DNA from: Asterias amurensis
Lineage: Eukaryota > Echinodermata > Asteroidea > Forcipulatida > Asteriidae
DNA: 64,000 bases
Assembly: GCF_032118995.1 (NCBI RefSeq)
Contig: NC_092650.1
Span: forward strand, 2,480,001-2,544,000
Direction: 5' to 3'
The notes under the pieces are model-generated. The model did not search any database and was not told the origin of the DNA. It worked only from the letters and a program-made list of their open reading frames with translations. The translations under genes were made by a program, and so were the position numbers. Positions 29,477-64,000 of the stretch are shown here, one piece after another (the stretch's first letter is position 1; every line of letters begins with the position of its first letter).

Positions 29477-29987
29477 GGCGTCGATTTAGTATGGAACCGT
29501 GTTAAGCCCTTTTTAATGTTCGTATATATCTAAATTCTATGTGAAAAACTTACAATACCGGATCTTTCACGACAAAATTGACAAAATAAAATATTGTATT
29601 CGATTCAACAAGCCACCGCATTGCTTATAAAAACACTAGCATCCACTCTCATTATACGAGTCGGATTTAGAACGGGTTATTTAAAAGGGTATCTTGAGAG
29701 TTTTATAAGCAATGCGTTTGTACTTGGATGTCTTACATACTATACTGGTCGTATTGGGTTTAAAAGTGACATTCCTTATTAGTTACTTTCTGCAACTATT
29801 TTAGCTACCCGATGTCACGGTTTTTATACATGTCTCATTTAATCCATTGCATTAAAAGTTAATTCACATTAAATTGTTTTCCATGTTTTCCATTTTTAGG
29901 TTACAAAGTACAGGTTTAATTATTATGGTTTAAAACATTACGAGAAACTTTATAAGATGAAGCGATCAGGTGCTTTATGAGGAGATG

Positions 29988-29993
29988 TTTATT
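29988..29993 (-). terminator. Polyadenylation signal of FReD copy 1
   Basis: AATAAA on the minus strand 42 nt beyond the TAG stop. The equivalent hexamer follows the stop in copy 2 (46830-46835) and copy 3 (63638-63643). Confidence 0.6.
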
Positions 29994-30034
29994 ACTGCGT
30001 ACCTTTTTATAATGGTATCCATCTTAATTAAGGA

Positions 30035-33000
30035 CTAAACTTTCCTTCTAATTTTCATCTCAGTTGTTTTGAGTGAGCGGGAACCCGAAAAGCCTAACCA
30101 CCTAATTCCTTCTAGGTCCCTAGAGGCCTCATTGAAGTATCTCCCGTTCAAATTGGATTGGTAGCAGGCATTGTACCACCAGGCTCCGTGGCATTGCTCA
30201 GCACAGTTACTACTCCAGGCATCGTTGTCTCGGTCTTTGGTCGTAAAGGCCTGGTTATTGTGGTGTGATAACTTGTCTCCTGAAAGATAACACACGTAGC
30301 CATTATAGTCATACGTGTAAATAAAGGCGATGTTGACAGGAGGTAACTTTAAACATTAATTTGTTTCGAACATAACTTAGGTCGATAAGGTGTGATTAGA
30401 AACAAATTTATCAATTAATGGAACTGGGATATTGGGAGAAGTGAAGTAAATGTTTCACAATCAGGTTCATTTTTAACTGCATTTTGTTTTCTTTTTAAAG
30501 CCATTGGACACATTCTGAACAGAACCAAAAATTAAAAGTTCACAGATTTACAAATAACTTACAAAGTTTACAGAAGGTGCTGGTGAAAGACTTCCCTTGA
30601 AATATTATTCCATGAAACGCTTTACTTTTTGAGAAAACATTAAAACACCTATCAATTTTCGATATCAACAATAACGGATTTATTATAAACACATTTCATG
30701 ACATGGCGAAACGTGCGGAAACAAGAGTGGGTTTTCCCGTTATTTTCTCCCGACTCCGATGACCGATTGAGCCTTACTTTTCACAGGTTTGTTGTTTTAT
30801 ATATACGTTGTGATACACGAAGTGCCCTTTGGACAATACTGTTTACCGATGTTGTGCAATTGCTTTAAGTTACAGTTTAATAAGATAGTTCGAAAATTGC
30901 TATCGAAACGGGATTTAAAAGCAACGTTTATACGTTATATTTGTTCTCCTCCAAATTGTGTTTTTACGATTCAGTTAAATGTTTCTAGCGAGTTTAAAAT
31001 TGCTGAATTCAAGTTATTTGTCGTACATTTTGTCATTTTTTAGTTTCAAGGGATAAACATCATCTTCCTCTTTTTTACTTGGTGTTGGGCAGCAAAGGAT
31101 AATAAAAGTTACACCCCTCCAATTTTCGGCTTGGTTTGAGCAGCAAGGGGTGCAAAATTCTACCCCTCCTCTTCCGTCTGGAGTTGAGGAACAAAACATA
31201 GACAATTCCCCCTCCACTTTTAAAGGCACTCCAGACACTTTTGGTTATTACTCAAAATGATTATTAGAAACCTACTTGAACTAGCAATGGGGAGATGTGA
31301 ACATTATAAGAAACGGCTCCCTCTGAAGGAACGTATAGTTTTTGAGAAAGAGGTGATTTCTCATTCAACTATTTGAATCACGATGTTGCTTTTCTGTCTT
31401 TCATTGACACCTACCAAAAGCAATCGGTCACCACGATGGACACAGATTACCCTGCAATATTTCTGTATAACTACAAGATATCCACTTATAATCGTACCTG
31501 CGGTTCCAGAGTAACTTCCTACAGTCAGCCTGTAGTTATCGCTCACATCGGCAATGCTGAACGATTCATACACGGCAAAGCCGGTATCGTCGTCGAAGCC
31601 TGTGAGATCTACGCGGAGTTCGTACTCGCCCTGAGCAGTCAGACGGTGCAAGTTATCGTTACCCAGCCAAAACTCTCCCTCTAGATTCCCAAAGCCCCGG
31701 CTGTAGCTGGCAAAGTCCAAATAGAAATCTACACTGCCGTCCTGACGCCGCTGGAAAACCTATCGAAGAAACATTAACGCACATCATTTTGAATGGCTTT
31801 GTGTTCACATAACATTTTAGACTTTACACTTCTAAAAAATATGTATTTTAGATGGAAAGTCCGCCATTGTCTTACCGTCCAGCCTCCGCCGTCTGTCTCC
31901 ATATCACAGTACACATCGAATGGCGCACCGGAGTCCGGCTTCACGGCATAAACGCCACTGCCTGCCTCACCCCTTGCGAGCACGTCGGAACAATCTCTGA
32001 CTCCTTCTATACAAAAAACGAGATAATGATTTTAGTATAGATGGAAAACAGAATACCAGGACAAGATGGAAATGAGAAGAATCTACTATATCCCTCTCTT
32101 TAAAAGCACTGGACACTATTGGTAACTACTCAAAATAATCGTTAGCATAAAACTTACTTGGTAATGAGCAATGGAGAGCTGTTGGTGGTATAAAACAGTG
32201 TAAGAATTGAAACGGCTCCCTCTGAAGTAACGTAGTTTTCGAGAAAGAAGTATTTTCCAACTTAAATACTTGATTTGAATTTGAGACTTCAGCTGAGGTC
32301 TCGAAATCAAGCGTCTGAAAGCACACAACTTGTGCGACAAGGGTGTTTTTTCTTTCTTTATTCTCTTGCAACTTCTACGACTATTTGACTCCCTAATTTC
32401 ACAGGTTTGTTATTTTATGCATTATTGTTTTACTGTTGAGTTACACCAAGTGAAAACACTGGTCTTTGACAATTACTGAAGGCGTCCAGTGCCTTTAAAC
32501 ATACAAACTCTCTTAATGTAAAAGAGTGAAAAAACACTCCTTTTGTCCGCCATACCACTCTCGCAAATAGCCATATGACGGTCAACTCTTCTGAGAGTGA
32601 AAGACGGGTACTTTCAACTCGATTTAGAGTGAGTTAGTTTGTTCCAATTTCACTCGAAAAGAGTAACACAGTTTGACTTTCACTCTCAAAAGAGCGAAAC
32701 TAACACCACTCGGACAAGAGAGTGACAACACCCTCGTCGTCGCACTTTTGTGTATGAGTAAATTTGAACGCATGTTTATAACAGACAGAAGGTATAACGC
32801 TTACGATCGGGTGTGTAGGCGTACTTGTCGTCGCTGCAAACCGAGCTCTACTGTGTAAATACACACTCACACATCGAGGACTTTTAGCACAGCGAGGACG
32901 TTCTCGCTTTGAAAAATTGTGATAAATGCAGCATTATAGCCAGTTTGGACGCCACTGAGATATCTAAGCTTTTTGGGACATAAATCCTCGGTTTACGTCA

Positions 33001-36000
33001 TTTACGAGAGGAGTATGTGTGAGTTAACACAATTCTGTTGCCGGAGCGGTGGGTTAGCACTCTTGGATGGTTACATCGCCCTCTGTTGATAATGAAGTTT
33101 CCTTCTTGTAGGTAGTACTACCTACAAGAAGGAAACTTCATTTCTAAATCTGAACTCATTTATGCATGACGGTTAGCTTATTCGATTTGAGTCGGGTAGC
33201 GTGGCCGGTTGCAGCTGTCATGGGGACGCATCATAAACATTGAGTGCATTGCATCCACCAGGACCCTAGAGTCAACCATTCGACCCATGACAGCTCTCGA
33301 GAGAAGACAAGAAATGGGGAGTGATCTGAGTGTAAATAAATTTCCATGTAGGCCTAAACCTTACTCTTTACTGTACTGACTACATCACTATACTATATAC
33401 AGTCGTTTGACCAGTTAACGATTCCTTACACACACTTGTCAACAAACACATAGTTGAATGATTTAGGACATGACAAATTGATGTTTATGCATGTGATTAA
33501 GAAATAACCCCTAAGAATACGTACCCCAGTTGGAATTCCACAAGTTCATTCGAACCAAAGTCAATTCGTGCCCAAGTAAATTCGTACCCGAGTCAATACG
33601 TACCCAAGTTCATTCGTAGCCAAGTCAATTCGTACCCAGGTGTACTGATACCCAAGCACGTTTTAAAGATGACACAATCTTGTATGTTTCCCCCCCCCCC
33701 CCAAATGAAATGAAAATTAATCAACCCGTTTGCCTTTCATTTTTCAGGGAAGTCACTCATCAAGTACTGTGTGCGTTACACTGATGATGGCATCACACGC
33801 TCCTTATTTGAGCACCAGGTGAGTAAATGATGATGTCATGTATTAATTCCATCGATCTTAATTTAATAACATGCTATGTGTCTTCATAATATTATATGTT
33901 CTGTACAATTGAGACGTTTTTCCAAGGTTGACGTGATGAGGCAAACAAATGTCCTCTCTAAATGTAACAGAGTGCAAAAACACTTGCTGTTTACGGCAAG
34001 CGGCTCGCTTTATAGTAAAAGCTGGATAATAACCAATCCGTGCCACATTGAGTACAATGATCAACACAAATATGGCTCAAAATTGGGTGTATTCGTTTTA
34101 CCTCATCGACAAACACGGTCGGCCATTTATGGGAGTCACAACTTGGACTCCCATAAATGGCCGACCGTGTTCGTTCGCGACGTAAAATGAAAACCGTGCA
34201 ATTTGGAGTGATACTTGTATGGATCATTATATTCTACTTGTAAAACATCTTTCTAACCATATGCATTTCATCAGAAACGGTTTCAAACGCTGTTCATAGA
34301 CCAACTCGACCGATCCAAGGCAACGTGTTCCTTTAAGTTCTGACTAGCTTAGTGCTTATGTATTATTTGCCTATAAATTTAAGGGCACGCTGATCCACTC
34401 AACCGTATATATTTAATTCGTGTCATAATCCTAATCATATCTCAGTGGTGTTAATTATATCATTTATCTTTTCCTTGCTAGCTGGCCCATCAAACATCAG
34501 GTTTTCAGTCTGATACTTCAAGGTCTGTCAACCCCAACACCAATTGCAGGGATAACGATGACCCACAAGCTATTTTTCAGTCTGATCCTTCAAGGTCTGT
34601 CAACCCCAACACCAGTTCCTGGGATGACGATGACCCACAAGCTATTGTTCAGTCTGATCCTTCAAGTTGTGTCAACCCCAACACCAGTTCCTGGGATGAC
34701 GATGACCCACAAGCTATTTTAGAAACTGCCGAGCTTCACCAAAGCAATGAAGCTGTAGGATGTGAAACAAATGATTCGAGTGAGAAGTGTGCCGTAACAG
34801 TCATGCAGACCGATAATGTCGGTGGACAAAGGAAATGGGACAAAAAACACTATTGCTTTTACTGTGATGAGCCTCAGGCCAAGTTACCCCGTCATCTTCA
34901 GTCACGTCACAAAGAGGAGAGGGAAGTTGTAGAGATAGCATCGGAGACCGACGTTAGTGCCCGCAAGAAACTTCTGTTATACATCCGCAATATTGGTAAT
35001 CACAGACACAATTGCCAAGTCCTTAGAGAGGGAAAGGGTGTCCTTATTATAGTATACAGACCAAATCATGAGGCATCTCCACTCGCATATGGACCATGCA
35101 TACATTGTTATGGCTATTACGTGCGTCTTGATCTTTGGCGTCATCAGTGCCCACTTAAGCCTGCGCTCCCTGCACAGACTGATGGTAGCAGTAGGAGAGG
35201 TCGTGTTAGGGGGCGAGTAGCTAACAAGAGTGATTTGTTAAAACCACCCCCTGCTGGTGTATCTTTCCAGTTGAACAAGGTTCTTAGTTCTATGAGGAGA
35301 GACAATGTTGGTCTGATTGTCAAGAATGATTCTTTGATTCTGGAAGTTGCCAAACGTGAATACCTTAGACTTGGCCACGATGTTACACAACATGGCTACA
35401 TTCGGAACAAACTACGAGAACTTGGTCGTCTTGTTATACAACTGAGACAAAACACCCACCAACCAAATGCATCACTGGAAGTATTCGTGCATCCCCGCCA
35501 TCTGAATGATATCGTTAAGGCTGTTCATGATGTCGCCGGCTTCAGTGAAGGAAAACAGATGTATCACGTTCCATCTCTAGCACTCAAGATTGGACATTCC
35601 ATCAAGAGATGTGCACTCATACTTCAAGCAAGTGCTTTAGAGTTTAATCTTAGGCAAAAAGCGGAACAGGCCGAACAGTTTAGGCAGTTATGTGAAATAA
35701 AGTGGCCAGAACTTGTGTCAACCCACGCCCACAGAACACTGTCCAAGGAAAGCGCAACAAACCTGCTGATCTCCCCACAAATGCAGATGTGGTGAAAATC
35801 TCATCGTTCCTTCATGAAACTGGCAACAGGGAAGTGCAGCTCCTACACTCTGCTAAGGGCCATGAAATTACACCAGCTTGGAAGAAATTGAATGAAGTCA
35901 CACTGTGCCATCTCAGTATCTTCAACCGCAGACGACAGGGGGAAGTATCCAAAATGAAACTTGAAGATTTTCACAAGCGCAGTAGTGCAGCCATTGTGAA

Positions 36001-39000: not shown

Positions 39001-40412
39001 TATTGTTTCAACTTTTAGGGCATGTTTTTAGCTTTCGCCAAGCGTCACTATCTAGTGTTGGTACTGCATGCGATTCATCGCGCCTCGATTGACGTCACGA
39101 ACAGCGCCCTCTCGGGTCGGGCTAATTTTCAAATTTGTAAATAAAATGGAAACTAATTTTTTTTAAACCATAGTTAATTGTTTATTCATATTCCACTCAT
39201 CAAACCACATATTTTAGTGACAAAAGCTTTATTTTGACAAAATACCACTTCCATGTTCAAAATACTGGTGAGGTAGTGAATGGCGCTAGACCTGTATCGG
39301 TTGGTTCTGCACCTGATACTAGACAAAGAGTCGGAATTCCTAAGGTTATTGTTCCATGCAGGAGGCAGCCACTCTCTATGTGGTTGAGGACAGGTCCGAA
39401 TTACCAAAATTCAAAGAGAGCTGTTCAAGTCTTTCAGTGAGGGGCGGAATGTTAAGCACCACACAAATATCTGCAAAAAACACCAAACTTTAAAAGAAAA
39501 ACCGGAGCTCTAACAGTTGCGATGTGGACGCGCTGAAAAACTCTACCAAAAAAGAAAAAAAAACATCTTTCCAACCATATGCATTGAATAACAAACGATT
39601 ATCAACGCTTTTCAAAGACCAACTCGACCGGTCTAAGGCAACGTGTTCCTTTAAAAGATAATGTTGTGTGCTTGTGTCTTTTTCTACCTCCATGGTTTAA
39701 CCACGATTGCAAGCAAACAAAACCTACCATGGATCTTCGTCATAGATACTGACTCCTGGAGCTCTTCCACCTGACGCCCACTGACTCCCATTTCACGTCT
39801 TATGTCTTTTAACTGAAGTGTTGTGTTTCTTAGTGCGACAGTTACCTTTTGTTGGTTGGTAGTTACTGCAACCTGCAACTCACTAACCATACGACGTGTT
39901 TCCTCTTGCTCAGAGGTGGCTGTTTCTTGGTTGGTTGATATTGCAGCCATTGTACGTCTTGCCGCAGTCTGCAACTCACTAACCATTCGACGTGTTTCCT
40001 CTTGCTCAGAGGTGGCTGTTTCTTGGTTGGTTGATATTGCAGCCATTGTACGTCTTGCCGCAGTCTGCAACTCACTAACCATTCGACGTGTTTCCTCTTG
40101 CTCAGAGGTGGCTGTTTCTTGGTTGGTTGATATTGCAGCCATCGTACGTCTTGTGTCCTCCAGCTCAGATGAAACAGTTTCATGACTATCAGTCATTATT
40201 ACTTTGAGCTCTTTCACCTGGTCTTGTGTATTTCTGAGTTCATCTTCAAGAATGACTAGGTAGTTTTCTACAATAAGCCTCAACTCGTCTACCTTACTAT
40301 TTGTGTCTACATTACATGAAACCCCACTCTGATGTCTGGAAGCTTCAACTTGTAGTTCAACTTGAGACTTCACAATCAGAACGACCAAGAGCGAACGGAT
40401 AAACAACCCCAT
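30035..40412 (-). CDS. Secreted coiled-coil fibrinogen-domain lectin (FReD), copy 1, complete
   Basis: Probable secreted pattern-recognition lectin of the ficolin/FREP type. Exons: 40412-39728, 32006-31876, 31759-31498, 30279-30035. They join in phase to 1323 nt, 440 residues. Exon 1 starts at the Met of [12 protein letters not shown] (signal peptide) and encodes a heptad-like coiled coil with three near-identical 31-residue repeats ([14 protein letters not shown]...), likely for oligomerisation. Exon 2 opens the FReD (CSDVLARG ... [11 protein letters not shown]). Exon 3 gives [12 protein letters not shown] through [12 protein letters not shown]. Exon 4 carries the Ca-binding DRDND segment and the [10 protein letters not shown] ligand-pocket region, then ends [15 protein letters not shown] box lies upstream and an AATAAA 42 nt past the stop. 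Intron 1 is 7.7 kb and contains an opposite-strand gene. One oddity: a Cys just before HGAWW, where the family usually has Tyr or Phe. The domain call is secure; the immune role is inferred from the family. Confidence 0.92.
30495..30868. mobile_element. TTAA-target element, family C, unit 1
   Basis: Left end TTAA-AGCCATTGGACAC, right end GCAATTGCT-TTAA. In intron 3 of FReD copy 1. The unit 2 copy (from 47339) has lost its right end. Confidence 0.65.
32100..32500. mobile_element. TTAA-target element, family A, unit 1
   Basis: Inside intron 1 of FReD copy 1. Duplicated at about 48926-49315 in unit 2. Confidence 0.65.
32515..32760. repeat. Cluster of short inverted AGAGTGAAA / TTTCACTCT words
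   Basis: Several hairpins built from AGAGTGAAA and CACTCTCAAAAGAG words. The unit 2 copy is at about 49320-49545. Function unknown. Confidence 0.5.
33091..33142. repeat. 52-bp perfect palindrome
   Basis: Perfectly symmetric about 33116/33117 (GGTAGT/ACTACC at the centre), AATGAAG at one edge and CTTCATT at the other. Upstream of the first zinc-finger-gene exon seen. Confidence 0.9.
33530..33660 (+). repeat. Minisatellite, about 17-bp unit
   Basis: Seven or eight imperfect units of CAATTCGTACCCAAGT. Upstream of the zinc-finger-gene exon at 33748. Confidence 0.75.
33748..37606 (+). CDS. Zinc-finger / tyrosine-recombinase-like / Myb-like protein (5' end not found, frame disturbed)
   Basis: Exons seen: 33748-33818, 34482 to about 36522, 36853-36930, 37359-37606, with GT-AG borders in matching phases. 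The long exon begins with three 24-residue repeats, then a C2H2-like finger ([19 protein letters not shown]) and a C2HC finger (CIHC...WRHQC). A tyrosine-recombinase-like domain follows: box I Arg in [12 protein letters not shown], Lys/Arg in [11 protein letters not shown], box [11 protein letters not shown], then FMGHD and REYYQLP with the likely nucleophile Tyr. The last exon resembles a Myb/SANT-like tail ([11 protein letters not shown] ... RTWRNIKDF). Many invertebrates and fish carry unnamed proteins of this layout. The frame changes twice, within 35702-35795 and near 36465, so this is a decaying gene or there are assembly errors. The first exon is unknown. It lies inside intron 1 of FReD copy 1 and is absent from copy 2. 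Whether it is a domesticated recombinase or a mobile element is not settled; no flanking repeats were seen. Confidence 0.7.
33940..34336. mobile_element. TTAA-target element, family B, in the zinc-finger gene intron
   Basis: Right end CAACGTGTTCCT-TTAA (34333-34336), central ACACGGTCGGCCATTTATGGG inverted repeat, left end diverged. Lies between the first two exons seen of the zinc-finger gene. Confidence 0.6.
34503..34718 (+). repeat. Coding tandem repeat, 3 x 72 bp
   Basis: Three in-frame 24-codon units (34503, 34575, 34647) encoding [20 protein letters not shown]-type segments, rich in acidic residues and Ser/Asn, N-terminal to the zinc fingers. They differ by only a few bases, so the expansion looks recent. 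Confidence 0.9.
37057..37680 (+). repeat. 85-bp direct repeat: intron copy and 3' end copy
   Basis: The segment from about 37057 to 37140 in the last intron recurs at about 37595-37680, covering the stop codon and the start of the 3' flank of the zinc-finger gene (shared text ATGCACCACCAAAGTACAG). A partial local duplication of the gene's own 3' end. Confidence 0.75.
38640..39440 (+). mobile_element. THAP-start element remnant flanked by inverted repeats
   Basis: GTGACGTCAATCGAGGC near 38688-38704 is repeated inverted at about 39082-39098. Between them, 38817-38968 encodes a short protein opening [16 protein letters not shown], the zinc-binding start of a THAP domain, then diverging to a stop; a possible GT donor follows near 38940. 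THAP domains start P-element-type transposases and many host factors. A minus-strand AATAAA lies near 39227. It appears to split a TTAA-type element whose halves lie at 38114-38220 and 39559-39657. Unit 2 of the duplication lacks it. Confidence 0.5.
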
Positions 40413-44010: not shown

Positions 44011-44209
44011 CAGGTGTCTCACTGGTCTTGTTTGGGAAACACCAGGAAAACAAGAAACTGTAATTAGAGGTGAACAATTTATCTCGAGGATTGCCTGGCC
44101 CACTTGTTTCCACTTTAACTTAGAATCAATTTTAGGGCTTAGGACGAGTTCAGTTCCGTAACCATGGGCCTAGATGTTACGACGCATTGAACCCATCTCC
44201 TATAGGAGG

Positions 44210-44567
44210 AGTTAATAATAATAATAACCCGTTTTTATATAGCGCTCTTCACACCCGGAGGGTGTCTCAAAGCGCTTCACATTATTACCCCTGGTCACTG
44301 GGCCTTAAATCACTCCTTAAGCCATCTCAGCTCCCTGGTAGGGAGTATGCAGCCTGTGCAACATTAGTTATGCGCTACTCGGCTAAATCAATCACAAGAA
44401 CCATCTCTGCCCTCACAGGTACCCACTTACCCCTGGGTGGAGAGAAGCAATTATAGTGAAGTGTCTTGCTCAGGGACACAAGTGTCACGACCGGGATTCG
44501 AACCCACACTCTGCTGAACAGAAGCACCAGAGCACCTATCCGCTCGGCCACGACACCCTGAGTTACT
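44210..44567 (-). mobile_element. Same SINE, unit 2
   Basis: Copy of the unit 1 SINE at the same relative place, with a shorter TTA tail. It arrived by segmental duplication, not by a separate insertion. Confidence 0.85.
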
Positions 44568-45953
44568 CGTCCTAACTCGAGATAGGATTTATCCAAGCAT
44601 TTCATGAAATCGGCTGCAGTGCCTTTAATTTTAATTGCAACATTCAATTATTATCCCAGATGGGAAATTCAGTTTAGACAAGACGACTTATTTATGCACT
44701 AACAAAAATGTTTGGTCCACAGTGGAAACACTGGCTTATTTGCTTTGCGCACAAAAACATTGGGTATTTTTTTGTCAATCATTCGACCAAAACCTACACC
44801 CATAACGTTGTTTTTCGATCTATCCATTAACCTACACGGGTTAATATTCCAGAAAGTACACTGCACTACACTTTGTATACAGCGGTAGATAGCAAAAATC
44901 ATTGCACTGTCTGGGCTGATTTTATTTGTTTGTTATTATTTTTTATTTTTTTAAAACTACACTTTGAACTGACTAGCTTAACAAAATCGATGTTTTACCT
45001 CAAAATCAGTTGTGGCCGAAGGAGGGTACTTCTCGTTTAATTGAAGAAGTTGCATAAATTATAACAATCGCCGTGTGATGAAATGTAACCTGGAAAAAGG
45101 GTACACTATGAAAACTATATTGAATATAACTAATAAAACACACTCAAGATCGGATGGGGAAAAGACGCGAGGAAATGCAAAAAAAAAATAGGAACAGATG
45201 ACACAAAGTATAGGTTTATCAAACAAAATTAAAAAATGACTTTATTGATTATAAGACAATTTAACAAAAGCAGTATAAAACAATGCAAACCAAAAATGGA
45301 TGAACTTGTGATCTAAACCTTAAAAATGACTCTGTTCGGAACTTCAAACAAAGAAAACCAAGTTAAACCTAAACCAAAATAAACTACAAGAAACCTTGAC
45401 TAAAGCTAACAAAAAAACAAAACAAAAATCAAATTAAAATCAAAATGGCTTTTGAAACTGATTCCATAATTATTAGCAGGAAATACACTTGAAGCAGGCA
45501 AAATTATGTAGAAATTAAAACTTGAGAAGAGAGATAAACCAGAAGTGCTCCTTGCGCTGTCAGGCTGCTATATGATTGTTATTCAAAGATATAACAATAA
45601 GTCACCAGCCTCAAGTTCAAGATTTAATTAGCAAAATAACCAATCTTTGAAAGTTTAATCACATTGGGATTGCCAGTGAATCCAATCTGAAAGATTTTGA
45701 GTACAGGAAATTAGAAACTAACCCAAGTTGGATCATTACCTGTTACACAGTTGTTTATTTTTGATTCCATTCATAGATTATACTTCTGTCATAGATTATA
45801 TCTGAGCATTAATTAACCAGGACATATCCATTGCAGTTAATATTAGTCTTATTAGGCCTACTAAGAGAATAATCGATTTCCACCATACCGCCGTTTGCTT
45901 GTTTCAAAGCTTTTGCACGGGTGGGACCCAAACAGAACAATTATTGGGAAATA

Positions 45954-46315
45954 AGCACTATTGGTAATTGTCAAGTACCAGTCTTCTCACTTGGAGTGTC
46001 TAATATGCATAAAATAACAAACCTGTGAAAATTTGAGCTCAATTGGTCGTCGAAGTTGCGAGTAGCTATGAAAGATAAAACAACCTTGTCACACGAAGTT
46101 GTGTGCTTCCAGATGCTTTGCGAGACCTCAAAATCTAGTTCTGATGTCTCAAAATCAAATTCGTGGACACTTACTTCTTTCTCGAAACCGCGTCACTTCA
46201 GAGAGAGCCGTTACTCACAATGTTGTATACTATCAACCTCTCCTCATTACTAGTTACCAAGGTTTTATGCTAATAACTATTTGGAGTAATTACCAATAGT
46301 GTCCACTGCCTTTAA
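45954..46315. mobile_element. TTAA-target element, family A, unit 2
   Basis: Copy of the 29098 element carried along by duplication. Confidence 0.65.
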
Positions 46316-48925
46316 AAAGGGCATCGATTTAGTATGGAACCGTATTAAGCCATTTTTAATGTTCGTATATATCTAAATTCTATGTGAACAACTTACAATA
46401 CCGGATCTTTCACGACAAAATTGACAAAATAAAATATTGTATTCGATTCAACGAGCCACCGCATTGCTTATAAAAACACTAGCATCCACTCTCATTATAC
46501 GAGTTGGATTTAGAACGGGTTATTTAAAAGGGTATCTTGAGAGTTTTATAAGCGATGCGTTTGTACTTGGAAGTCTTACATACTATACTGGTCGTATTGG
46601 GTTTAGAGTGACATTCCTTATTAGTTACTTTCTGCAACTATTTTAGCTACCCGATGTCACGATTTTTATACATGTCTCATTTAATCCATTGCATTTAAAG
46701 TTAATTCACATTAAATTGTTTTCCATGTTTTCCATTTTTAGGTTTCAAAGTACAGGTTTAACTATTATGGTTTAAAACATTACGAGAAACTTAATAAGAT
46801 GAAGTGATCAGGTGATTTATGAGGAGATGTTTATTACTGCGTACCTTTTTATAATGGTATCCATCTTAATTAAGGACTAAACTTTCCTTCTAATCTTCAT
46901 CTCAGTTGTTTTGAGTGAGCGAAAACCCGAAAAGCCATACCACCTAATTCCTTCTCCGTTCGTAGTGGCCTCATTGAAGTATCTCCCGTTCAAATTGGAG
47001 TCGATGCATTGCCTGTACCACCAGGCTCCGTGGTATCGCTCAGCACAGTTAGCACTACTCAAGGGATCGTTGTCTCGGTCTTTGGTCGTAAAGGCCTGGT
47101 TAGTGTGCCTTGATAACGAGTCTCCTGTAAGATAACACACGTAGCCATTATAGTCATACGTGTAAATAAAGGCGATGTTGACAGGAGGTAACTTTAAACA
47201 TTAATTTGTTTCGAACATAACTTAGGCCGATAATGTGGGATTAGAAACAAATTTATCAATTAATGGAACTGGGATATTGGGAAAAGTGAATAAATGTTTC
47301 ACAATCAGGTTCATTTTTAACTGCATTTTGTTTTCTTTTTAAAGCCATTGGACACATTCTGAACAGAACCAAAAATTAAAAGTTCACAGATTTACAAATA
47401 ACTTACAATAAGTTTACAGAAGGTACTAGTGAAAGACTTCCCTTTAAATATTATTCCATGAAACGCTTTACTTTTTGAGAAAACATTAAAACACCTATCA
47501 ATTTTCGATATCAACAATAACGGATTTATTATAAACACATGTCATGACATGGCGAAACGTGCGGAAACAAGAGTGGGTTTTCGCGTTATTTTCTCCTGAC
47601 TCCGATGACCGATTGAGCCTAACTTTTCACAGGTTTGTTGTTTTATATTATTATACGTTTTGATACACGAAGTGGCATTTGGACAATACTGTTTACCGAT
47701 GGCAGTTTAATAAGATAGTTAGAAAATTGCTATCGAAACGGGATTTAAAAGCAACGTTTATACGTTATATTTGTTCTCCTCCAAATTGTGTTTTTACGAT
47801 TCAGTTAAATGTTTCTAGCGAGTTTAAAATTGCTGAATTCAAGTTATTTGTCGTACATTTTGTCATTTTTTAGTTTCAAGGGATAAACATCATCTTCCTC
47901 TTTTTTACTTGGTGTTGGGCAGCAGAGGATAATAAAAGTTACACCCCTCCAATTTTCGGCTTGGTTTGAGCAGCAAGGGATGCAAAATTCTACCCCTCCT
48001 TTTTCCGTCTGGAGTTGAGGAACAAAACATAGACAATTCCCCCTCCACTTTTAAAGGCACTCCAGACACTATTGGTTATTACTCAAAATGATTATTAGAA
48101 ACCTACTTGAACTAGCATTGGAGAGATGTGAACATTGTGAGAAACGGCTCCCTCTGAAGGAACGTAGTTTCTGAGAAAGAGGTGATTTCTCATTTAACTA
48201 TTTGAATCACGATGTTGCTTTTCTGTCTTTCATTGAGACCTACCAAAAGCAATCAGTCACAACGATGGACACAGATTACCCTGCAATATTTCTGTATAAC
48301 TACAAGTATCCACTTATAATTGTACTTGCGGTTCCAGAGTGACTTCCTACAGTCAGCCTGTAGTTATCGCTCACATCGGCAATGCTGAACGATTCATACC
48401 CGGCAAAGCCGGTATCGTCGTCGGGGCCTGTGAGATCTACGCGGAGTTCGTACTCGCCCTGAGCAGTCAGACGGTGCAAGTTGTCGTTACCCAGCCAAAA
48501 CTCTCCCTCTAGATTCCCAAAGCCCCGGCTGTAGTTGGCAAAGTCCAAATAGAAATCTACACTGCCGTCCTGACGCCGCTGGAAAACCTATCGAAGACAA
48601 ATTAACGCACATCATTTTGAATGGTTTTGTGTTCACCTAACATTTTAGACTTTACACTTCTAAAAAATGTGTATTTTGGAAGGAAAGTCCTCCATTGTCT
48701 TACCGTCCAGCCTCCGCCGTCTGTCTCCATATCACAGTACACCTTGAATGGCCTACCGGAGTCCGGCTTCACGGCATAAACGCCACTGCGTGCCTCACCT
48801 CTTGCGAGCACGTCGGAACAATCTCTGACTCCTTATATAAAAAACGAGATAATGGTTTTAGTATAGATGGAAAACAGAATACCAGGACAAGATTGAAATG
48901 AGAATCATCTGCTATATCCCTCTCT

Positions 48926-49315
48926 TTAAAGTCATTGAATACTATTGGTAACTACTCAAAATAATCGTTAGCATAAAACTTAATTGGTAATGAGCAATGG
49001 AGAGCTGTTGATGGTATAAAACAGGTAAGAATTGAAACGGCTCCCTCTGAAGTAACGTAGTTTTCGAGAACGAAGTATTAAATACTTCAATTGAATTTGA
49101 GACCTCAGCTGAGGTCTCGAAATCAAGCGTCTGAAAGCATACAACTTGTGCGACAAGGGTGTTTTTTCTTTTTTTTATTCTCTTGCAACTTCTACGACTA
49201 TTTGACTCCCTAATTTCACAGGTTTGTTATTTTATGCATTATTTTTTACTGTCGAGTTACACCAAGTGAAAACATTGGTCTTTGACAATTACTGAAGGCG
49301 TCCAGTGCCTTTAAA
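48926..49315. mobile_element. TTAA-target element, family A, unit 2
   Basis: Copy of the 32100 element. Confidence 0.65.
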
Positions 49316-49835
49316 CATACAAACTCTCTTAATGTAAAAGAGTGAACAAACACTCCTTTTGTCCGCCATACCACTCTTGCAATGAGCCATATGACGAAAA
49401 ACTCTTTTTAGAGTAAAAGACGGGTACTTTCAACTCAATTTAGAGTGAGGTTTGTTCCAATTTCACTCAAAAAGAGTAACACAGATTGACTATCACTCTC
49501 AAAAGAGCGAAAGTGATACCACTCGGAGTGAAAACACCCTTGTCGTCGCACTTTTGTGTATGAGTAAATTTGAACGCATGTTTATAATGGACAGTTTAAG
49601 GTGTAATGCTTACGATCAGGTGTTGGGGGGGGGGCGAGTACGTTTCGAATGGTGATTAAATAGACCCCTAGTCTTGGCCCAAGACGATGGTGCTTGATTC
49701 TGGATAGTGTACTACGCGCGGTTGAATCGCCAAAGCGCGCCCGCCACGGTATGATTTAGTTACGTGGACGGCTCGAAATCTAGACTACACTCTGCAAGCT
49801 ACCATCGTCTTGGCAATCCTGCAGCGCTGCGTGCA

Positions 49836-50693
49836 CTGTGGGCGTTGCCGTATTATGTTAATAAGGCCGTTGTCGAGGTTGTGTAATGCATATTCAACAT
49901 GTGAACAACATGGCTGCGCCCAGCAGCATGAAATGAAGTCGGGCCACGGTCGGACGTACGGGACGAACGAGTGATACTATAATATGGTTTGCCTAGCCAT
50001 ACCATGGAGGAATTCCTCCATGGCCATACTTAACGAACGCAATGCAGGGATTTAAGTTCTACATCCCCTTTTCCCAGAAAACCAATTAATAATTATTGTC
50101 GTTATTCTGAAGAATAGCTGACTACAGAATGTCTGAGAGAAAACTGACTAAGGAGGAATTAAGTAACAAAATGCTTCGTTACGTGTCGTGTTTGTTTTAT
50201 GGTTTTATACTTCCCGAATGATTTGTCGTGGGCAGATCACATGAACCACAGACAGACGAACTACCCTCAGTGCATATATTACACCATGGAGGTACCTACA
50301 TGATTATACTCACATGGAGGTAGAAACCTCCATGATACTACCGTATATAGTAGTTTTACTACAGCAAACACTATTCACTGTACAAGTACAATTTATTGTC
50401 GTTCTGAGGCATCGACTTATATGACTTTGCACATGTATTAAACTTTAGGGCTACTAATTGTGTCACAATCACATGAATACCTAATAGTCAGTACGTTATA
50501 ATTAACAATGATGTATTGTGTCTTAAAACAATTGATACAGTTTAATTCAAATTATTTCTAAATAAAGGCCAACACAAATTACTTGTTCATAAAATTGATT
50601 TCTTTCTTTATTGCCAAACACAAATTCTTCACAGAACAGTGGCTATTAAAATGATCAGGTTTGTAAACAGGCTATAACAACGATACCCCACAA
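49836..50693. other. Left interior of the 3.8-kb transposon, no gene seen
   Basis: AT-rich. It contains a small palindrome around 50001-50022 (CATGGAGGAATTCCTCCATG) and further CCATGGAGG words near 50284-50335. No coding signal recognised. Confidence 0.5.
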
Positions 50694-51234
50694 TTAAAGC
50701 CTGAGCGACTAGTGAAATTTGCTTCTCAACTATTCGTGCCTCAAATAGTCGCAACTTCAACACACTAGTCATTTTTCATGCCCCAAAATGCATTGCGACG
50801 TATTATTTGCTGCAGGTGCAATAGAGTAAAACTCACGCTGAAAGGATTTAAGGATTGTGTCACTTTATGTCTAGGGCTGGGCGACTAGTGCGACACAGTG
50901 TCAAACTTGTCGCACAGTCGAGATTATTAAAATCACAAGTCGTGTTGCGACTACTTTTTTTAATTCCTAATTGAATAATCGTGTACTCCAAAAATAGTAA
51001 CAACTTCCTGTTTGGTGAACTGTCTATTGTATCGCTCACGACTATTCATGGCAACATAATTTACTTACGAAACACAGTCAGTGACACCAGTGACAATCCT
51101 TCAATCCTCTAAGCACGAAATTTACCATATTGCCCCTGCGGCAAACAAGTCATGACTAGTGTCGTAGTCATGACTTTTTGAGGTGTGACTAGTTGAGTAG
51201 TAACTTACACAAGTGGCCCAGGCTTACTGATGTC
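50694..51234. mobile_element. Nested short inverted-repeat element
   Basis: Ends read AAGCCTGAGCGACT and, inverted, AAGCCTGGGCCACT. The interior repeats the GCGACTAGT / AGTCGCAACT words many times, a pattern common in hAT-type non-autonomous elements. It lies inside the 3.8-kb transposon. No clear target duplication. Confidence 0.5.
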
Positions 51235-51540
51235 TGGTTGTGTTTCATAGGTAAATTATGTTGTCATGAAAAGTCGTGACTGTGAGCGACACAATTTTTT
51301 CAGCAAGCAGGAATAGTCGCAACTATTGTAGTTGTTGTGGTGGCTCGATTTACGGAGTAGGTGAATAATGGCAGTCGCAACTCGACTAAGCAATAACTAG
51401 TTGCGATTTCGACATCAATCGTAGTGCGTACCACTAATCGCCAATCACAGGCTTTCCCACAGCAGCATTTAAAGTGCACAGGTATCACAGCAGTTATACA
51501 CAATACTGTTTGTACTATGTACTTGTGTGAGCGGCTGAGC

Positions 51541-52040
51541 CTACGACCACTCTTCTACATTGTGGGGTGCAATGCAGTTTTCATCTAATTCTCTTGGTCT
51601 TAGATAGTTTATGGCAGTTGAAAGACCATGTTGCTCATCTCGCCCAACTCTTCCACTTAGTTGTACATTTTCATCTTGGTGTTCAAAATAATGACAAACA
51701 TCAACCCCAGTCCAAAAGCATCGGTTGCTAAGAGTATGCACACAGTTCCCACAGTGTTGAAAAAGCTATGTAAACTCATCTTGAAAGTCAATCTCTGTAT
51801 TGGTATGGTATGATACATGTCGACAATAAATTGTGATACAGTGGTGGAACTTTGCAGCAAAATGTAGAGTACAGTTCTTCACATACGTCTTTCTTGATTG
51901 ACAGTTAATATGATGTTCCATCTTTTCCTTTTCTCTTGAGACTTCCTCTGCAAAACAGCAAAATATCTCTTCCACAATTATATACGCTTGAATCTTGATT
52001 CTGTCACAGATTTGTCTCTCTTGAATCAAGAACTCCATTC
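51541..52040 (-). pseudogene. RecQ-like superfamily II helicase remnant inside the transposon
   Basis: Two overlapping frames give recognisable C-terminal helicase motifs in the right order: CILLATDAFGLG (motif V, 51657-51860) and VQLSGRVGRDEQ (motif VI, Q-x-x-G-R-x-G-R-D, 51541-51741). A preceding FIVDMYHT segment resembles the RecQ strand before motif V. The frame shifts between motifs V and VI and upstream, so this is decayed coding sequence. The Walker motifs were not located. Confidence 0.6.
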
Positions 52041-53281
52041 CTTAATTGCAGAGCAGTCGACTACCCATTCATCTGAAAAGACGAGGCCTAAAAAGTATCA
52101 GTACTCCAAGGTGGGCATGCAGCAGTTCTCTAAAAGCCTTTCCTGGAAATGTGCCCTATCAGAAGAATGAAACAAATACAAATCATAGAATAAGTTCAGT
52201 GATTATATTGGGTCTTATTGTGCTAAACTTTTTCTGCATCAAGCTTAATGTAAAATGTATATCTGTTTTGATTATTAATATTACGATCATCAATCAACCC
52301 AACTATAGTAATTGCAAACAAGTGTTAATTGCTTGTGCACAGAAGAAAAATGTAAGTTAAAAAAAAAAATGTCAGCCAATGAGCCATTTTCAAATCGAGG
52401 GATATGAATCTGTGTGCATTGAAGTGTTGGTGACTCAAGTCAGACAAATCCAATCTCACATAAAGCTGGGCTATGTTCGTTCCAAACCGAAACAAAACCA
52501 AGGAGTAGGCTCATACTTCCTTCGAATGTGAATGCAAAGTGGATTTTGGTGAGGCAATACTTTTACGAGCTGCCCTTCCATAAGTGAGACACAAGAAAAT
52601 TGTGCTTCGCATGATGAAATAGCACTGCTATTTAGCAGGAAGGAGGTCTACCTACATAAATAACAACAAGTTTTGAAGTATTCAAACATGACAAACAATG
52701 ACTACTTACAATGTATGACTTTACGTTTTCTAATTCTATACAGATTCGATCAATATAAACAAGATTCTCTCCACTCACCACTTTGTGACACTGGCAGTTA
52801 CATAATGACTTGGGATCCATCCATGACTTGCTCAGTTGCAAACGTTGGTCGTATGTGGTGTCATGCTCTAGTTCCCTATAGTTTATTCACACCCGGACAT
52901 CCTACCTCCATAGTACAACTGCTGCCTGCACATGCAGCAGACGAAGCACACGAGAACTGACGGAGTTTATCGCAAAACCAGACCGTCCGCAGAGAGGGCA
53001 CTAGCTGGTATATTTTGACATAGTCGTTCATTAATTGCCATCTAGATAGCAGATCAATATAGCTTCGGCTCACTTGTTCATCTTTAACATTCATAATCAT
53101 AATCGTGAATATTTCCTATTTTCTTACGATTTTTCCTCCACGACAAACACGGAGCTGCCAATGCCGTGTAATCATAACATGAATGACCCCGGGGTCAACT
53201 AAACATTATGTTAATTTATTACAACGATCGCACGCTGATTGGTTCTACAGAAAGCTGTAGAAGAAAACAATGAAAAAGTTA
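52041..53281. other. Right interior of the 3.8-kb transposon, no confident gene
   Basis: Short open stretches on both strands with no motif I can name. It may hold the decayed N-terminal part of the element's protein. Confidence 0.4.
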
Positions 53282-54073
53282 ACACAGCGCTGCAGGATTG
53301 CCAAGACGATGGTAGCTTGCAGAGTGTAGTCTAGATTTCGAGCCGTCCACGTAACTAAATCATACCGTGGCGGGCGCGCTTTGGCGATTCAACCGCGCGT
53401 AGTACACTATCCAGAATCAAGCACCATCGTCTTGGGCCAAGACTACCTGACGCCCAACTGCAGTCTGCAACTCACTAACCATTCGACGTGTTTCCTCTTG
53501 CTCAGAGGTGACTGTTTCTTGGTTGGTTGATATTGCAGCCATTGTACGTCTTGCCGCAGTCTGCAACTCACTAACCATTCGACGTGTTTCCTCTTGCTCA
53601 GAAGTAGCTGTTTCTTGGTTGGTTGATATTGCAGCCTGCAACTCACTAACCATTCGACGTGTTTCCTCTTGCCCAGAGGTGGCTGTTTCTTGGTTGGTTG
53701 ATATTGCAGCCATCGTACGTCTTGTGTCCTCCAGCTCCGATGAAACAGTTTCAGTCATTATTACTTTGAGCTCTTTCACCTGGTCTTGTGTGTTTCTGAG
53801 TTCATCTTCAAGAATGACTAAGTAGTTTTCTACAATAAGCCTTAACTCGTTTACCTTACTATTTGTATCTACATTACATGAAACCGTTCTCTGATGTCTG
53901 GAAGCTTCAGCTTGTAGTTCAACTTGAGCTTTTACGATCAAAACGACCAAGAGCGAACGGATAAACAACCCCATTTTGCTCAATTATAACTGCAACTACA
54001 AAACACGACTCCTTTCGTTGCTGAATAGAGTAGAAATGTATAGATGAGTGAGCAACAGCCTATCTATAGATCA

Positions 54074-59458: not shown

Positions 59459-60311
59459 TATATCACAACTTTACGTTTATCTGTTTTTCCTTTTTAATAT
59501 AAACAAAATCGCATTGATGTTGATCTACTTGGTAAGGACATCATAATGCATATCAACGACTGGATTTATACAGTTCTGAAGGCACGATTGTTAATAATAA
59601 CATCAACAGGTTAATTAGTTATCTGTGTTCTACACATGTGTGCAAAACATCATCCCATCCATACAAACTGCTTGTGGTGAAAGATCAAAGTGAAATAATC
59701 TGAGGTCTCGAAATCAAATTCGTGGAAAATTACTTCTTTCTCAAAAACTACGTCACTTAGCCGTTTCTCACAATGTTTTATACTATCAACCTTTCCCCAT
59801 TACTCGTAACCAAGTACGGGTTTATGCTAATAATTGTTTTGGGTAGTTACCAATAGTGTCCACTGCCTTTAAATACTCTGCTCAATTTAATATGAGTAGT
59901 CCCTAGGCCTGTCGAGTTAGTCTCCCTGCTGGCCTCCAAGTCAATAATGCCACTTTTTTAGGGACTCATCCAAATCGTACATCAAGATGGTAGTCAACAA
60001 CCCCAAGTCACAATAGGGAAAATGTGTGTAGGCCTACACCCTGAAAACCCTTTGGGTATTGTAGCGGCCCTATACTTGCTTTTGCACCATCAGTGATTTC
60101 ATTGGATACAATGATTTCATTGGATAAACGTGAAGTGACGTTAGCTTTCCACATCTGTATTTCAATTGGTCAGAGGTGATGTGGGTACAGCTGACAAACA
60201 TCACATTGGACCAATCATCAAAACACAGATTTGGTCGTCTGCATGTTGTGGGCGCACTGCTGGGGTCTGCGATGGTTAGTCTAGCCGATAGCCAGCGCCC
60301 CTTGTTAGATT

Positions 60312-60655
60312 TAAAGGAACACGTTGCCTACGGTCGAGTTGGTCTTTGAAAAACGTGTGTTACCGTTTGTTATACAATGCACATGGTTAAAAAGATGTTG
60401 TAAAAGTAGAATACAATGATCCACACAAACAAGCCTCGAAATTGCACGGTTTTCCTTTTACCTCGTCGACTAACACGGTCGGCCATTTATGGGAGTTCGC
60501 ACAGTAAAAGGCAAACCTCGCAATTTCGAGGCAAACTTGTGTGGATCAATGTATTCTACTTTTAAAACATCTTTCTAACCATATGCATTTTATAAAAAAT
60601 GGTTACAAACGCTTTTTATAGACCAACTCGTCCGATCCAAGGCAACGTGTTCCTT
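60312..60655. mobile_element. TTAA-target element, family B, unit 3
   Basis: Segmental-duplication copy of the 26694 element. Confidence 0.7.
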
Positions 60656-60973
60656 GAACATCAGTCGTTTGCCCTATCCACTGCGAGTTGGGGGGCACGA
60701 TAGCTAGCTTACCTGGGGCGTTTTTTCTTTCTTTCATTATTCTCTTGCAACTTCGACCAGTTGAGTCCACTTTTCCACAGATTGTTTATTTCTGCATTAT
60801 GTTGAGATACACCAAGTGAGAATGGTCTTTGACAGTCAATACCAAACGTGTCCAGCCGTCATTTTCACCAAACTCTGCCAAACTTTAGAATCAATTTTAG
60901 GGCTTAGAACGAGTTCAGTTCCTTAACCATGGGCCTAGATGTTACGACGCATTGAACCCATCTCCTATAGGAC

Positions 60974-61326
60974 GAGTTAATAATAATAATAATAACCCGT
61001 TTTTATATAGCGCTCTTCACACCCAGAGGGTGTCCCAAAGCGCTTCACATTATTACCCCTGGTCACTGGGCCTTAAATCACTCCTTAAACCATCTCAGCT
61101 CCCTGGTGGGGAGTATGCATCCTGTGCAACATTAATTTGCGCTACTCGGCTAAATCAATCACAAGAACCATCTCTGCCCTCACAGGTACCCATTTACCCC
61201 TGGGTGGAGAGAAGCAATTATAGTGAAGTGTCTTGCTCAAGGACACAAGTGTCACGACCGGGATTCGAACCCACACTCTGCTGAACAGAAGCACCAGAGC
61301 ACCTATCCGCTCGGCCACGACACCCT
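60974..61326 (-). mobile_element. Same SINE, unit 3
   Basis: Third copy at the same relative place, nearly identical to that in unit 1. Confidence 0.85.
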
Positions 61327-62787
61327 GAGTTACTCGTCCTAACTCGAGATAGGATTTATCCTAGCATTTCATGAAATCGGCTGCAGTGCCTTTAATTCTA
61401 ATTGCAACATTCAATTCAATTTAATTCACTTTATTATCCCAGATGGGAAATTCAGTTTAGACGAGACGACTTATTTATGCACTAACAAAAATGTTTGGTC
61501 CACAGTGAAAACACTGGCTTATTTGCTTTGCGCACAAAAATATTGTGTGTTTTTTTGGTCAATCATTGGACCAAAACGTACACCAACAACGTTGTTTTTC
61601 GATCTATCCATTAACCTACACGGGTTAATATTCCAGAAAGTATGAAGTACATAATATACATGTACACTGCAGTACACTTTGTATACAGCGGTAGGTAGCA
61701 AAAATCATTGCACTGTCTGGGCTGATTTTACGGGTTGTTATTTGTCTTCTTTTTTTAAACTAGACATGGAACTGAAGCTTAACAAATTCGACGTTTAGTA
61801 CCTCGCAATCAGTTGTGGACTAAGGAGGATACATCTCGTTTAATTGGAGAAGTTGCATAAATTATAAAATCGCCGTGTGATAAAAATGTAAACTGGATAA
61901 TGGGGTACACTTAGAAAACTATATTGAATATATTAACTAATAAAATAATAATTGAATATATTAACTAATAAAACACACCAAAGTGTAGAAAATCAAGTGC
62001 GGGCGGTGAAAAAACGCGAGTAAATGCACAAAATAGGAACAGTGACACGTATAAGTTTCTCAAACAAACATAACAAATTGACTATTAATCAACCAATAAA
62101 AGCAGTATAAAACAATGCAAACCAAAAATGGATGAACTTGTGATCTAAACCTTAAAAATGACTCTGTTCGGAACTTCAAACAAAGACAACCAAGTTAAAC
62201 CTAAACCAAAATAAACTATAAGAAACCTTAACCAAAGCTAACAAAAAAACAAAACAAAAATCAAATTAAAATCAAAATGGCTTTTGAAACTGATTCCATA
62301 ATTATTAGCAGGAAATACACTTGAAGCAGGCAAAATTATGTAGAAATTAAAACTTGAGAAGAGAGATAAACCAGAAGTGCTCCTTGCGCTGCCAGGCTGC
62401 TATATGATTGTTATTCAAAGATATAACAATAAGTCACCCAGCCTCAAGTTCAAGATTTAATTAGCAAAATAACCAATCTGTGAAAGTTTCATCACATTGG
62501 GATTGCTAGTGAATCCAATCTGAAAGATTTTGAGTACAGGAAATTAGAAACCTACCCAAGTTGGATCATTACCTGTTACACAGTTGTTTATTTTAGATTT
62601 CATTCATAGATTATACTTCTGTCATAGATTATATCTGAGCATTAATTAACCAGGACATATCCATTGCAGTTAATATTAGTCTTATTATGCCTACTAAGAG
62701 AATAATCGATTTCCACCATACCGCCGTTTGCTTGTTTCAAAGCATTTGCACGGGTGGGACCCAAACAGAACAATTATTGGGAAATGA

Positions 62788-63122
62788 GCACTATTGGTAA
62801 TTGTCAAGGACCAGTCTTCTCACTTGTGAAAATTTGAGCTCAATTGGTCGTCGAAGTTGCGAGATCACTATGAAAGAAAAAACAACCTTGTCACACGTAG
62901 TTGTGTGCTTTCAGATGCTTTGCGAGACCTCAAAATCTGGTTCTGAGGTCTCAAAATCAAATTCGTGGAAAATTACTTCTTTCTCGAAAACTACGTCACT
63001 TCAGAGGGAGCCGTTTCTCACAATGTGTTACACTATCAACCTCTCCCCATTACTCGTTACTAAGTAAGGTTTTATGCTAAGAACTATTTTGAGTAATTGC
63101 CAATAATTTCCACTGACTTTAA
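62788..63122. mobile_element. TTAA-target element, family A, unit 3
   Basis: Copy of the 29098 element. It keeps an older form of several positions (GAGGTCTCAAAATC, GCCGTTTCTCAC) than units 1 and 2. Confidence 0.65.
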
Positions 63123-63688
63123 AAAAGACATCGATTTCGTATGGAACCGTATTAAACCTTTTTTAATGCCCGTTCTAAATTCTACGTGAACATTACAATA
63201 CCGGATCTTTTATGACAAAATTGACAAAATAAAATATTGTATTCGATTCAACGAGCAACCGCATTGCTTATAAAACACTCATGAAGATGTAGCATCAACT
63301 CTCATTATACGAGTCGGATTTAGAACGGGTTATTTAAAAGGGTATCTTGAGAGTTTTATAAGCAATGTGTTTGTACTTGTACTTACTAAGTATACTGGTC
63401 GTATCGAGTTTAAACTGACATTCCTTATTAGTTACTTTCTGCAACTATTTTAGCTACCCGATGTCACGGTTTTTATACATGTCTCATTTAATCCATTGCA
63501 TTAAAAGTTAATTCACATTAAATTGTTGTACATGTTTTACATTTTTAGGTTTTCAAAGTAGAGGTAAAATTATTATTTTTTCAAAATTACTAGAAACTTA
63601 GAAAAGATGAAGTGATCAGGTGATTTATAAGGAGATGTTTATTACTGCATGCGTACCTTTTTATTATGGTATCCATCTTAATTAAGGA

Positions 63689-63936
63689 CTAAACTTTCCT
63701 TCTAATTTTCATCTCAGTTGTTTTGAGTGAGCGGACACTCGAAAAGTCAGACCACCCCATTGCTTCTATGTCCCAAGTGGCCACATTGAAGTATTTCCCG
63801 TTCAAATTGGTGAGGACGCAGGCATGGTACCACCAGGCTCCGTGGAATGTCTCAGCACAGTTAACACCACTCCAGCGATCGTTGTCTCGGTCTTTGGTCG
63901 AGAAGGCCATGTTATTGTGGTATGATAACTTGTCTC
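63689..63936 (-). CDS. FReD lectin copy 3, last exon only (gene continues off the window)
   Basis: C-terminal exon of a third lectin gene, 248 nt, acceptor at 63937-63938 and stop at 63689. It encodes [20 protein letters not shown], then [14 protein letters not shown] and a [10 protein letters not shown] end. It has one codon more than copy 1 at the same place as copy 2. The Ca-binding DRDND and the pocket Cys residues are kept. It differs from copies 1 and 2 at many residues although the neighbouring intron is almost identical. The rest of the gene should lie to the right of the window. Confidence 0.88.
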
Positions 63937-64000
63937 CTGTAAGATAACACACGTAGCCATTATAGTCATACGTGTAAATAAAGGCGATGTTGACAGGAGG

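Follow-up and report, generated by a model that had tools for sequence, protein, structure and literature searches.

A hypervariable pocket exon in tandem ficolin-like lectin genes, probably shaped by diversifying selection and exchange between copies

Introduction

The ficolin family is defined by a collagen-like region ahead of a fibrinogen-related domain (FReD). The sea urchin 185/333 (SpTransformer) protein is not a FReD protein. Its genes are tightly clustered, diversified immune genes (PMC5491942, PMC8634487). Among invertebrate FReD proteins, the FREPs of the snail Biomphalaria form a diversified family for which both point mutation and gene conversion have been reported (PMC12074976, PMC7588048). 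In these proteins the IgSF domains are the more variable part, the fibrinogen domain being comparatively conserved, whereas in short FReDs the fibrinogen domain itself is more variable (PMC7588048). Mosquito FREP/FBN genes are clustered and expanded (PMC1242226), and several sites of FBN8 are positively selected (PMC2811201). Work on fly and mosquito FReDs points to a conserved pocket core (PMC2429915, PMC1242226). The ficolin family is also expanded in the brittle star Amphiura filiformis, in the context of clotting, defence and regeneration (PMC11310086). We take the cited points as given in the available portions of the papers.

Here, we analyse a 64-kb stretch of DNA, hereafter the window, that carries ficolin-like FReD genes in tandem on the minus strand. 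The last exon of these genes varies strongly between copies. We consider it probable that this variation reflects diversifying selection on the ligand pocket, together with exchange between copies, in a young array of probably secreted ficolin-like FReD lectins.

Results

A tandem array of ficolin-like genes

Self-BLAST delineates three units. Unit 1 spans ~26.1–44.1 kb, unit 2 spans 44.1–58.0 kb, and unit 3 starts at 59.7 kb and runs to the window end; across the aligned main blocks the units are 88–98% alike. The window is free of N, has a GC content of 36–43% in 4-kb steps, and gave no matches in tRNA and Rfam scans. From the spliced FReD genes, we infer that it is animal DNA. Gene 1 consists of four exons (40412–39728, 32003–31876, 31759–31498 and 30279–30035) with GT-AG junctions, which join into a single open frame of 1,320 bases including the stop and encode a product of 439 residues. 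Exons 2, 3 and 4 match consecutive parts (3–49, 45–137 and 140–219 of 221) of the Fibrinogen_C profile, PF00147. The features of the array are as follows.

30035..30279, minus strand: gene 1 exon 4, C-terminal FReD part with KDRDND, pocket cysteines and variable pocket codons (PF00147 E=2.1e-21 on the peptide; splice acceptor; stop)
31498..31759, minus strand: gene 1 exon 3, FReD middle (PF00147 E=5.1e-33 on the enclosing open frame; boundaries in frame)
31876..32003, minus strand: gene 1 exon 2, FReD start (PF00147 E=2.3e-13 on the enclosing open frame; boundaries checked)
39728..40412, minus strand: gene 1 exon 1, open frame from ATG with in-frame join to exons 2–4; hydrophobic N-terminus, helical-looking region and 96-bp repeat
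44120..49623, no strand assigned: duplicated stretch of unit 2 (self-BLAST 93–94% to ~27266–32814 of unit 1)
46877..47124, minus strand: gene 2 exon 4, variant pocket exon (homology to gene 1 exon 4)
48326..48587, minus strand: gene 2 exon 3; last base unlike copy 1, the exon end CAG being CAA ahead of the donor GT
48704..48831, minus strand: gene 2 exon 2 (boundaries in alignment with gene 1)
49669..53445, no strand assigned: element with terminal inverted repeats (arms 49669–49829 and 53285–53445, 161 of 161 bases identical)
53446..53974, minus strand: gene 2 exon 1, 3′ part absent (open frame and alignment with gene 1 exon 1; runs into the inverted-repeat element)
59699..64000, no strand assigned: start of unit 3 (self-BLAST 88–96% to ~26082–30343 of unit 1)
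63689..63936, minus strand: gene 3 exon 4, third variant pocket exon (homology to the other exon-4 copies; the remaining gene 3 exons would lie past the window)

The three exon-4 copies lie on the minus strand exactly where the initial annotation had placed them, and all three reading frames are open. We reject the idea that they are alternative last exons of one gene: exons 2 and 3 are present separately in gene 1 and in gene 2, as is an exon 1, which in gene 2 is truncated. By inspection, exon 1 of gene 1 appears to encode a signal peptide followed by a coiled coil, and the 439-residue product contains no collagen-like Gly-X-Y run that we could find by eye. Exon 1 of genes 1 and 2 gave no IgSF profile match at E 0.01, only weak sub-threshold hits of HTH type. 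The 96-bp (32-residue) tandem repeat in this exon occupies 39873–40153 in gene 1 and 53460–53711 in gene 2, with a different arrangement of repeat copies in each.

Gene 2 is interrupted. The inverted-repeat element occupies the place expected for the end of exon 1 and part of intron 1, so that this exon end and its donor site are gone; exons 2–4 are still open. The element looks transposon-like, and its identical 161-bp arms suggest a recent insertion. Gene 2 may therefore be a recent pseudogene, or may use another first exon.

The window contains further repeats and putative mobile DNA. Intron 1 of gene 1 holds overlapping plus-strand open frames (34482–36478), the second of which weakly matches Phage_integrase (E=0.00037, short of the curated cut-off) and may belong to a mobile element of the tyrosine-recombinase type. 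There is also a 72-bp tandem repeat at 34502–34720. A dispersed repeat family of up to ~390 bp, ~77–92% alike, is present on both strands (10109–10496; others at, e.g., 13520, 15532, 29101, 40610, 46003, 54172 and 62825). A long AAC-type microsatellite (unit AACAAC; 6950–7412) is preceded by a near-perfect 122-bp duplication (6713–6958), and an interstitial telomere-like repeat (AACCCT) lies at 12789–12973.

Replacement changes accumulate in exon 4

Between copies 1 and 2, exon 4 shows 29 base differences over 240 aligned bases, one codon indel and 17 changed residues in 80, close to the ~27 bases, one inserted codon and ~18 residues that had been counted by eye; these values use the gap placement with the fewest differences, and an alternative placement gives 31 bases and 18 residues. 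Copies 1 and 3 differ in 24 codons, where ~25 had been claimed, and at 23 of 80 residues, and copies 2 and 3 at 28 of 81 residues. Replacement and silent changes (NG86) number 26 and 3 for copies 1–2 (dN/dS 2.47; one-sided Fisher test of N over S, p=0.09), 29 and 2 for copies 1–3 (4.06; p=0.025), and 38.5 and 4.5 for copies 2–3 (2.53; p=0.026). Taken pairwise, the contrast between replacement and silent change is modest. The earlier count of about one silent change was too low for copies 1–2, since two of the three silent changes fall in multi-change codons, but the replacement excess itself holds, and a similar excess is found between copies 1 and 3 as claimed. In codons with a single change, replacement outnumbers silent change by 8:1 (copies 1–2), 16:1 (1–3) and 18:2 (2–3). 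Codons with several changes number 9 of the 18 changed codons in copies 1–2, 7 in copies 1–3 and 10 in copies 2–3, and adjacent differences between copies 1 and 2 exceed expectation both in exon 4 (11 versus 3.5) and in non-coding DNA (8 versus 4.4). Silent divergence of exon 4 is 0.04–0.09 across pairs. The variation stops short of the end of the exon, the last 13 codons and stop carrying 0–1 changes per 42 bases.

The non-coding DNA of the units provides a neutral yardstick. Copies 1 and 2 differ here at 119 of 3,241 bases (3.7%), or 2.6% in intron 3, 3.1% in the 3′ flank, 5.7% in the compared part of intron 1 and 7.1% in intron 2. Immediately beside exon 4, the adjoining 120 bases of intron contain 4 differences and the first 75 of the 3′ flank contain 2, the same numbers as in the initial annotation. 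Replacement sites of exon 4 (26/189) have diverged nearly four times as fast as this non-coding DNA (119/3241, p=4e-8), and the difference is as clear against intron 3 and the 3′ flank alone (66/2336, p=8e-10). Silent sites (3/51), by comparison, do not exceed the non-coding rate (p=0.44). In sliding windows of 242 aligned bases, exon 4 forms the peak with 30 differences, above the 23 of the highest among 3,148 overlapping windows off the exon, which lies at the far edge of the alignment; the proposed rise of exon over intron divergence is thus recovered.

The description of the flanks as nearly frozen fits copies 1 and 2. For copy 3 it applies only to the ~60 bases past the stop. Compared with copy 1, copy 3 differs at 3 of 166 positions around the variable part, counting 64 bases of intron, the final 42 coding bases and the first 60 bases after the stop. 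In the distal flank, 61–800 bases beyond the stop, it differs at 73 of 719 (10%). A 40-base patch at 29905–29944, some 100 bases downstream of the stop, sets copy 3 apart: it has 14 differences from copy 1 and 15 from copy 2, and those two copies differ there at a single base.

The other exons behave differently. Because dN is 0.041 and dS 0.178 in the first 75 codons of exon 1 (dN/dS ~0.23; 7N:8S), the start of this exon is under constraint, the opposite of exon 4, and its N:S ratio differs from the 26:3 of exon 4 (p=0.003). Four of 86 residues are altered in exon 3, as had been noted. Exons 2 and 3 together (10N:2S) have a ratio like that of exon 4 (p=0.62), with a replacement rate one quarter as high (p=4e-5).

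Codon models and neutral simulations

We fitted custom-written maximum-likelihood codon models (GY94 type, F3x4 frequencies) to the three exon-4 sequences on the three-taxon tree, which has one topology only. A single omega (M0) is estimated at 5.1 (p=0.003 against omega 1). M2a improves on M1a by 2dlnL=34.1 and, for these three sequences, places ~25% of codons at an omega near 26 and both remaining classes at omega 1; a second optimiser returned identical likelihoods. Among 60 data sets simulated under M1a, the maximum 2dlnL was 7.0. We also ran 3,000 neutral simulations in which substitutions followed the spectrum of the array itself, using copy 2 as ancestor and branch change numbers (8, 22 and 24) that we set ourselves. 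The observed silent fraction, 0.092, falls well below the simulated mean of 0.275 (p=0.0007), and 11 codons carry three different residues, compared with a simulated mean of 3.4 and maximum of 9. Chance is ruled out jointly by the sliding windows, the rate comparison and the null simulations.

The frequent multi-change codons and the surplus of adjacent differences leave room for multi-nucleotide events or conversion to have inflated the omega of these models. Multi-nucleotide events alone would not raise replacement change above the intron rate while silent change stays at it. Across the three copies of the window, we found neither a dN/dS near or below 1 nor equal divergence of exon and intron. 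The codon models and simulations, with the pocket enrichment described below, support the earlier proposal that the part of the FReD bearing the pocket is under diversifying selection.

The variable codons align with the ligand pocket of M-ficolin

The scaffold of exon 4 is preserved. All three copies have the same KDRDND segment and the same two cysteines, aligned to C270 and C283, bearing out the claim that these elements are kept while their surroundings change, and WWY and NLNG are invariant as well. We take the KDxDND segment to carry the Ca site. In M-ficolin, the available text lists Phe274, Asp282, Cys283, His284, Tyr300, Ala301 and Tyr312 at the GlcNAc site, S1 (PMC3088710), and a comparable residue set is given for FIBCD1 (PMC3908420). 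At the corresponding positions, with codons numbered after the 81-codon copies 2 and 3, copies 1, 2 and 3 have C/Y/F at codon 30 (Phe274), A/Q/A at codon 38 (Asp282), Y/I/V at codon 40 (His284), L/G/I at codon 56 (Tyr300 or Ala301) and S/F/V at codon 67 (Tyr312). Codon 39 (Cys283) is cysteine throughout, and copy 3 retains the Phe at 274. Codon 56 falls in column 300 of the main alignment and in column 301 of the phmmer alignment, the other position then falling in a gap; the aligned ficolin-1 sequence has F at 300. The S1 side chains of M-ficolin are thus mostly replaced, and they differ from copy to copy. Codon 30 of copy 1 (30191–30193) introduces an extra cysteine where M-ficolin has the pocket Phe274.

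Fourteen of 81 codons have a posterior above 0.8 (2, 5, 9, 20, 29, 30, 37, 38, 40, 41, 54, 56, 62 and 67), the posteriors being naive empirical values from three sequences. These include five of the six alignable pocket positions (30, 38, 40, 56 and 67; hypergeometric p=0.0004). The enrichment is also seen against all 29 residue-variable codons (5/6, p=0.02) and among the 11 codons with three different residues (4/6, p=0.003). Codons 5 and 9 correspond to Gly250 and Asn254 of M-ficolin; in simulations of a mutant of that protein, these two residues newly contact GlcNAc, as described in the accessible part of that study (PMC3088710). The replacement excess is therefore concentrated on codons aligned to pocket-lining residues and their neighbours. 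In the same simulations, GlcNAc is lost from M-ficolin when His284 is mutated (H284A; PMC3088710, same portion). As all copies lack this His, these lectins have probably lost or altered the canonical binding of acetyl groups.

Likely exchange between copies

Along the non-coding alignment, the copy that stands apart from the other two switches from block to block: copy 3 at 29235–30034 (65/83 variable sites), copy 1 at 28635–29234 (21/35), copy 3 again at 28035–28634 (44/64) and copy 2 at 27335–28034 (15/26). Because the odd copy changes in this way, exchange between units is suggested. Overall, the pattern forms 82 runs versus 121 expected, a value as low being reached in 0 of 5,000 shuffles; of the four blocks taken singly, only 28635–29234 reaches p below 0.05. 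Within exon 4, sites unique to copy 2 or to copy 3 are clustered (9 runs versus 17 expected under a codon-block shuffle, p=0.0004; p=0.022 with copy-1-only sites included), a pattern that clustered selection could also yield. The variant block differs at 28/201 (copies 1–2), 31/201 (1–3) and 42/204 bases (2–3), and the 166 flanking bases at 2, 3 and 3. As a counterpoint, the divergence of the copy 3 block from copy 1 is only moderately above that of its own distal 3′ flank. From the mosaic site patterns, and from the near-identity of copy 3 right beside its divergent block, exchange between copies appears likely. The initial annotation had offered shuffling by gene conversion as an alternative to selection; it gains some support here, and the two are not cleanly separable.

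Exchange might even dominate, with short-tract gene conversion from other paralogs installing the variant block as a cassette and selection acting on the resulting pool. The block is bounded on both sides by near-identity, yet the distal flank of copy 3 is 10% diverged, and the clustering of copy-2-only and copy-3-only sites also fits such tracts. However, tblastn (E 0.01) within the window finds these three exon-4 copies only, with no donor tract visible among the matches. Silent divergence between copies 1 and 2 at the non-coding level makes an old donor unnecessary, and a replacement excess within the pool would still need selection. We regard dominance of cassette exchange as possible but distinctly the less likely account.

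Drivers and remaining alternatives

Under our preferred reading, selection plus exchange, the array would draw its diversity from substitution under selection and from transfer between copies. Each copy would present a different pocket on a common scaffold, and changing ligands, most likely microbial surface glycans, would be the driver. Exchange among array members would homogenise some stretches and reshuffle the variant segments, for which the mosaic patterns give some support. By analogy with the family, the lectins may act in immunity or self-recognition. The same selection could have another driver, such as self, mate or symbiont recognition, or dietary ligands, instead of anti-microbial immunity, as selection on a pocket leaves the identity of the ligand unspecified. 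We think this improbable, because invertebrate FReD proteins are described, in the text available, as immune recognition molecules (PMC12074976, PMC1242226).

Three further explanations fare worse. An assembly artefact, in which heterozygous haplotypes or error-ridden repeats were placed in tandem, would accommodate the non-coding divergence of copies 1 and 2. Alleles in highly polymorphic animals can diverge by ~3.7% at non-coding sites. The units, however, are unlike in length, insertions and junctions, copy 3 is 10% from copy 1 in part of the flank, and base errors would neither spare silent sites nor target pocket codons, which makes an artefact very improbable. Relaxed constraint or pseudogene decay would suit copy 2, with its lost exon 1 end and donor and its changed exon-3 end, but decay cannot outpace the neutral rate, as replacement in exon 4 does nearly fourfold, and gene 1 is complete and every exon-4 frame open; we reject it, giving it slightly less credence still than an artefact. 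A local mutational hotspot acting without selection would explain why total divergence of copies 1 and 2 climbs over exon 4 and why adjacent changes are in excess, but hypermutation alone is rejected by the deficit of silent change and by the quiet last 13 codons and stop, and is the least credible of all.

Discussion

Diversifying selection with inter-copy exchange remains our preferred explanation. Selection localised to a structurally defined pocket on a still scaffold leads directly from sequence to a prediction of specificity, testable on glycan arrays, in which each copy may recognise something different. It raises the question of whether invertebrates diversify lectin pockets through exchange between tandem genes. 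More speculatively, and with low confidence, the array could be a germline pocket generator. A pocket block of 200 bases would be rewritten by selection and swapped between neighbours, between near-fixed exon-side flanks and around an invariant Ca-site segment; decayed copies such as gene 2 would persist as donors. The canonical acetyl pocket would have been given up for copy-specific, possibly individual-specific pockets.

In the available portions of the literature, invertebrate FReD diversity is described as copy number or, for snail FREPs, mainly as variation of the IgSF part. Among the matches listed in our literature search, we recognised no case of pocket-focused selection between tandem FReD copies; subscription journals are thinly covered there, and this is weak evidence of absence. 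As far as these portions go, large and diversified invertebrate FReD families are known, and pocket-focused hypervariability among young tandem copies appears to be a new form of such diversity.

The solved structures closest to the spliced domain are those of human ficolin-2 and ficolin-1 (E ~1e-70), with tachylectin-5A, which shares the same domain and is, like the ficolins, an acetyl-binding FReD lectin, at 2.7e-52. The likeness to ficolin-1 lies in the KDxDND segment, the cysteine pair and the WWY core common to the array copies. The difference lies in the pocket, where the M-ficolin side chains have mostly given way to copy-specific residues and His284 has become Y, I or V. In contrast to the snail FREPs, the variation here sits in a single exon of the fibrinogen domain. 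FBN8 lacks introns, and the comparison in its case was between Anopheles species, whereas the present signal is concentrated in one exon of young tandem copies. Compared with the Amphiura filiformis ficolins, as far as the available portion of that account describes them, pocket-focused selection is a feature of the present array.
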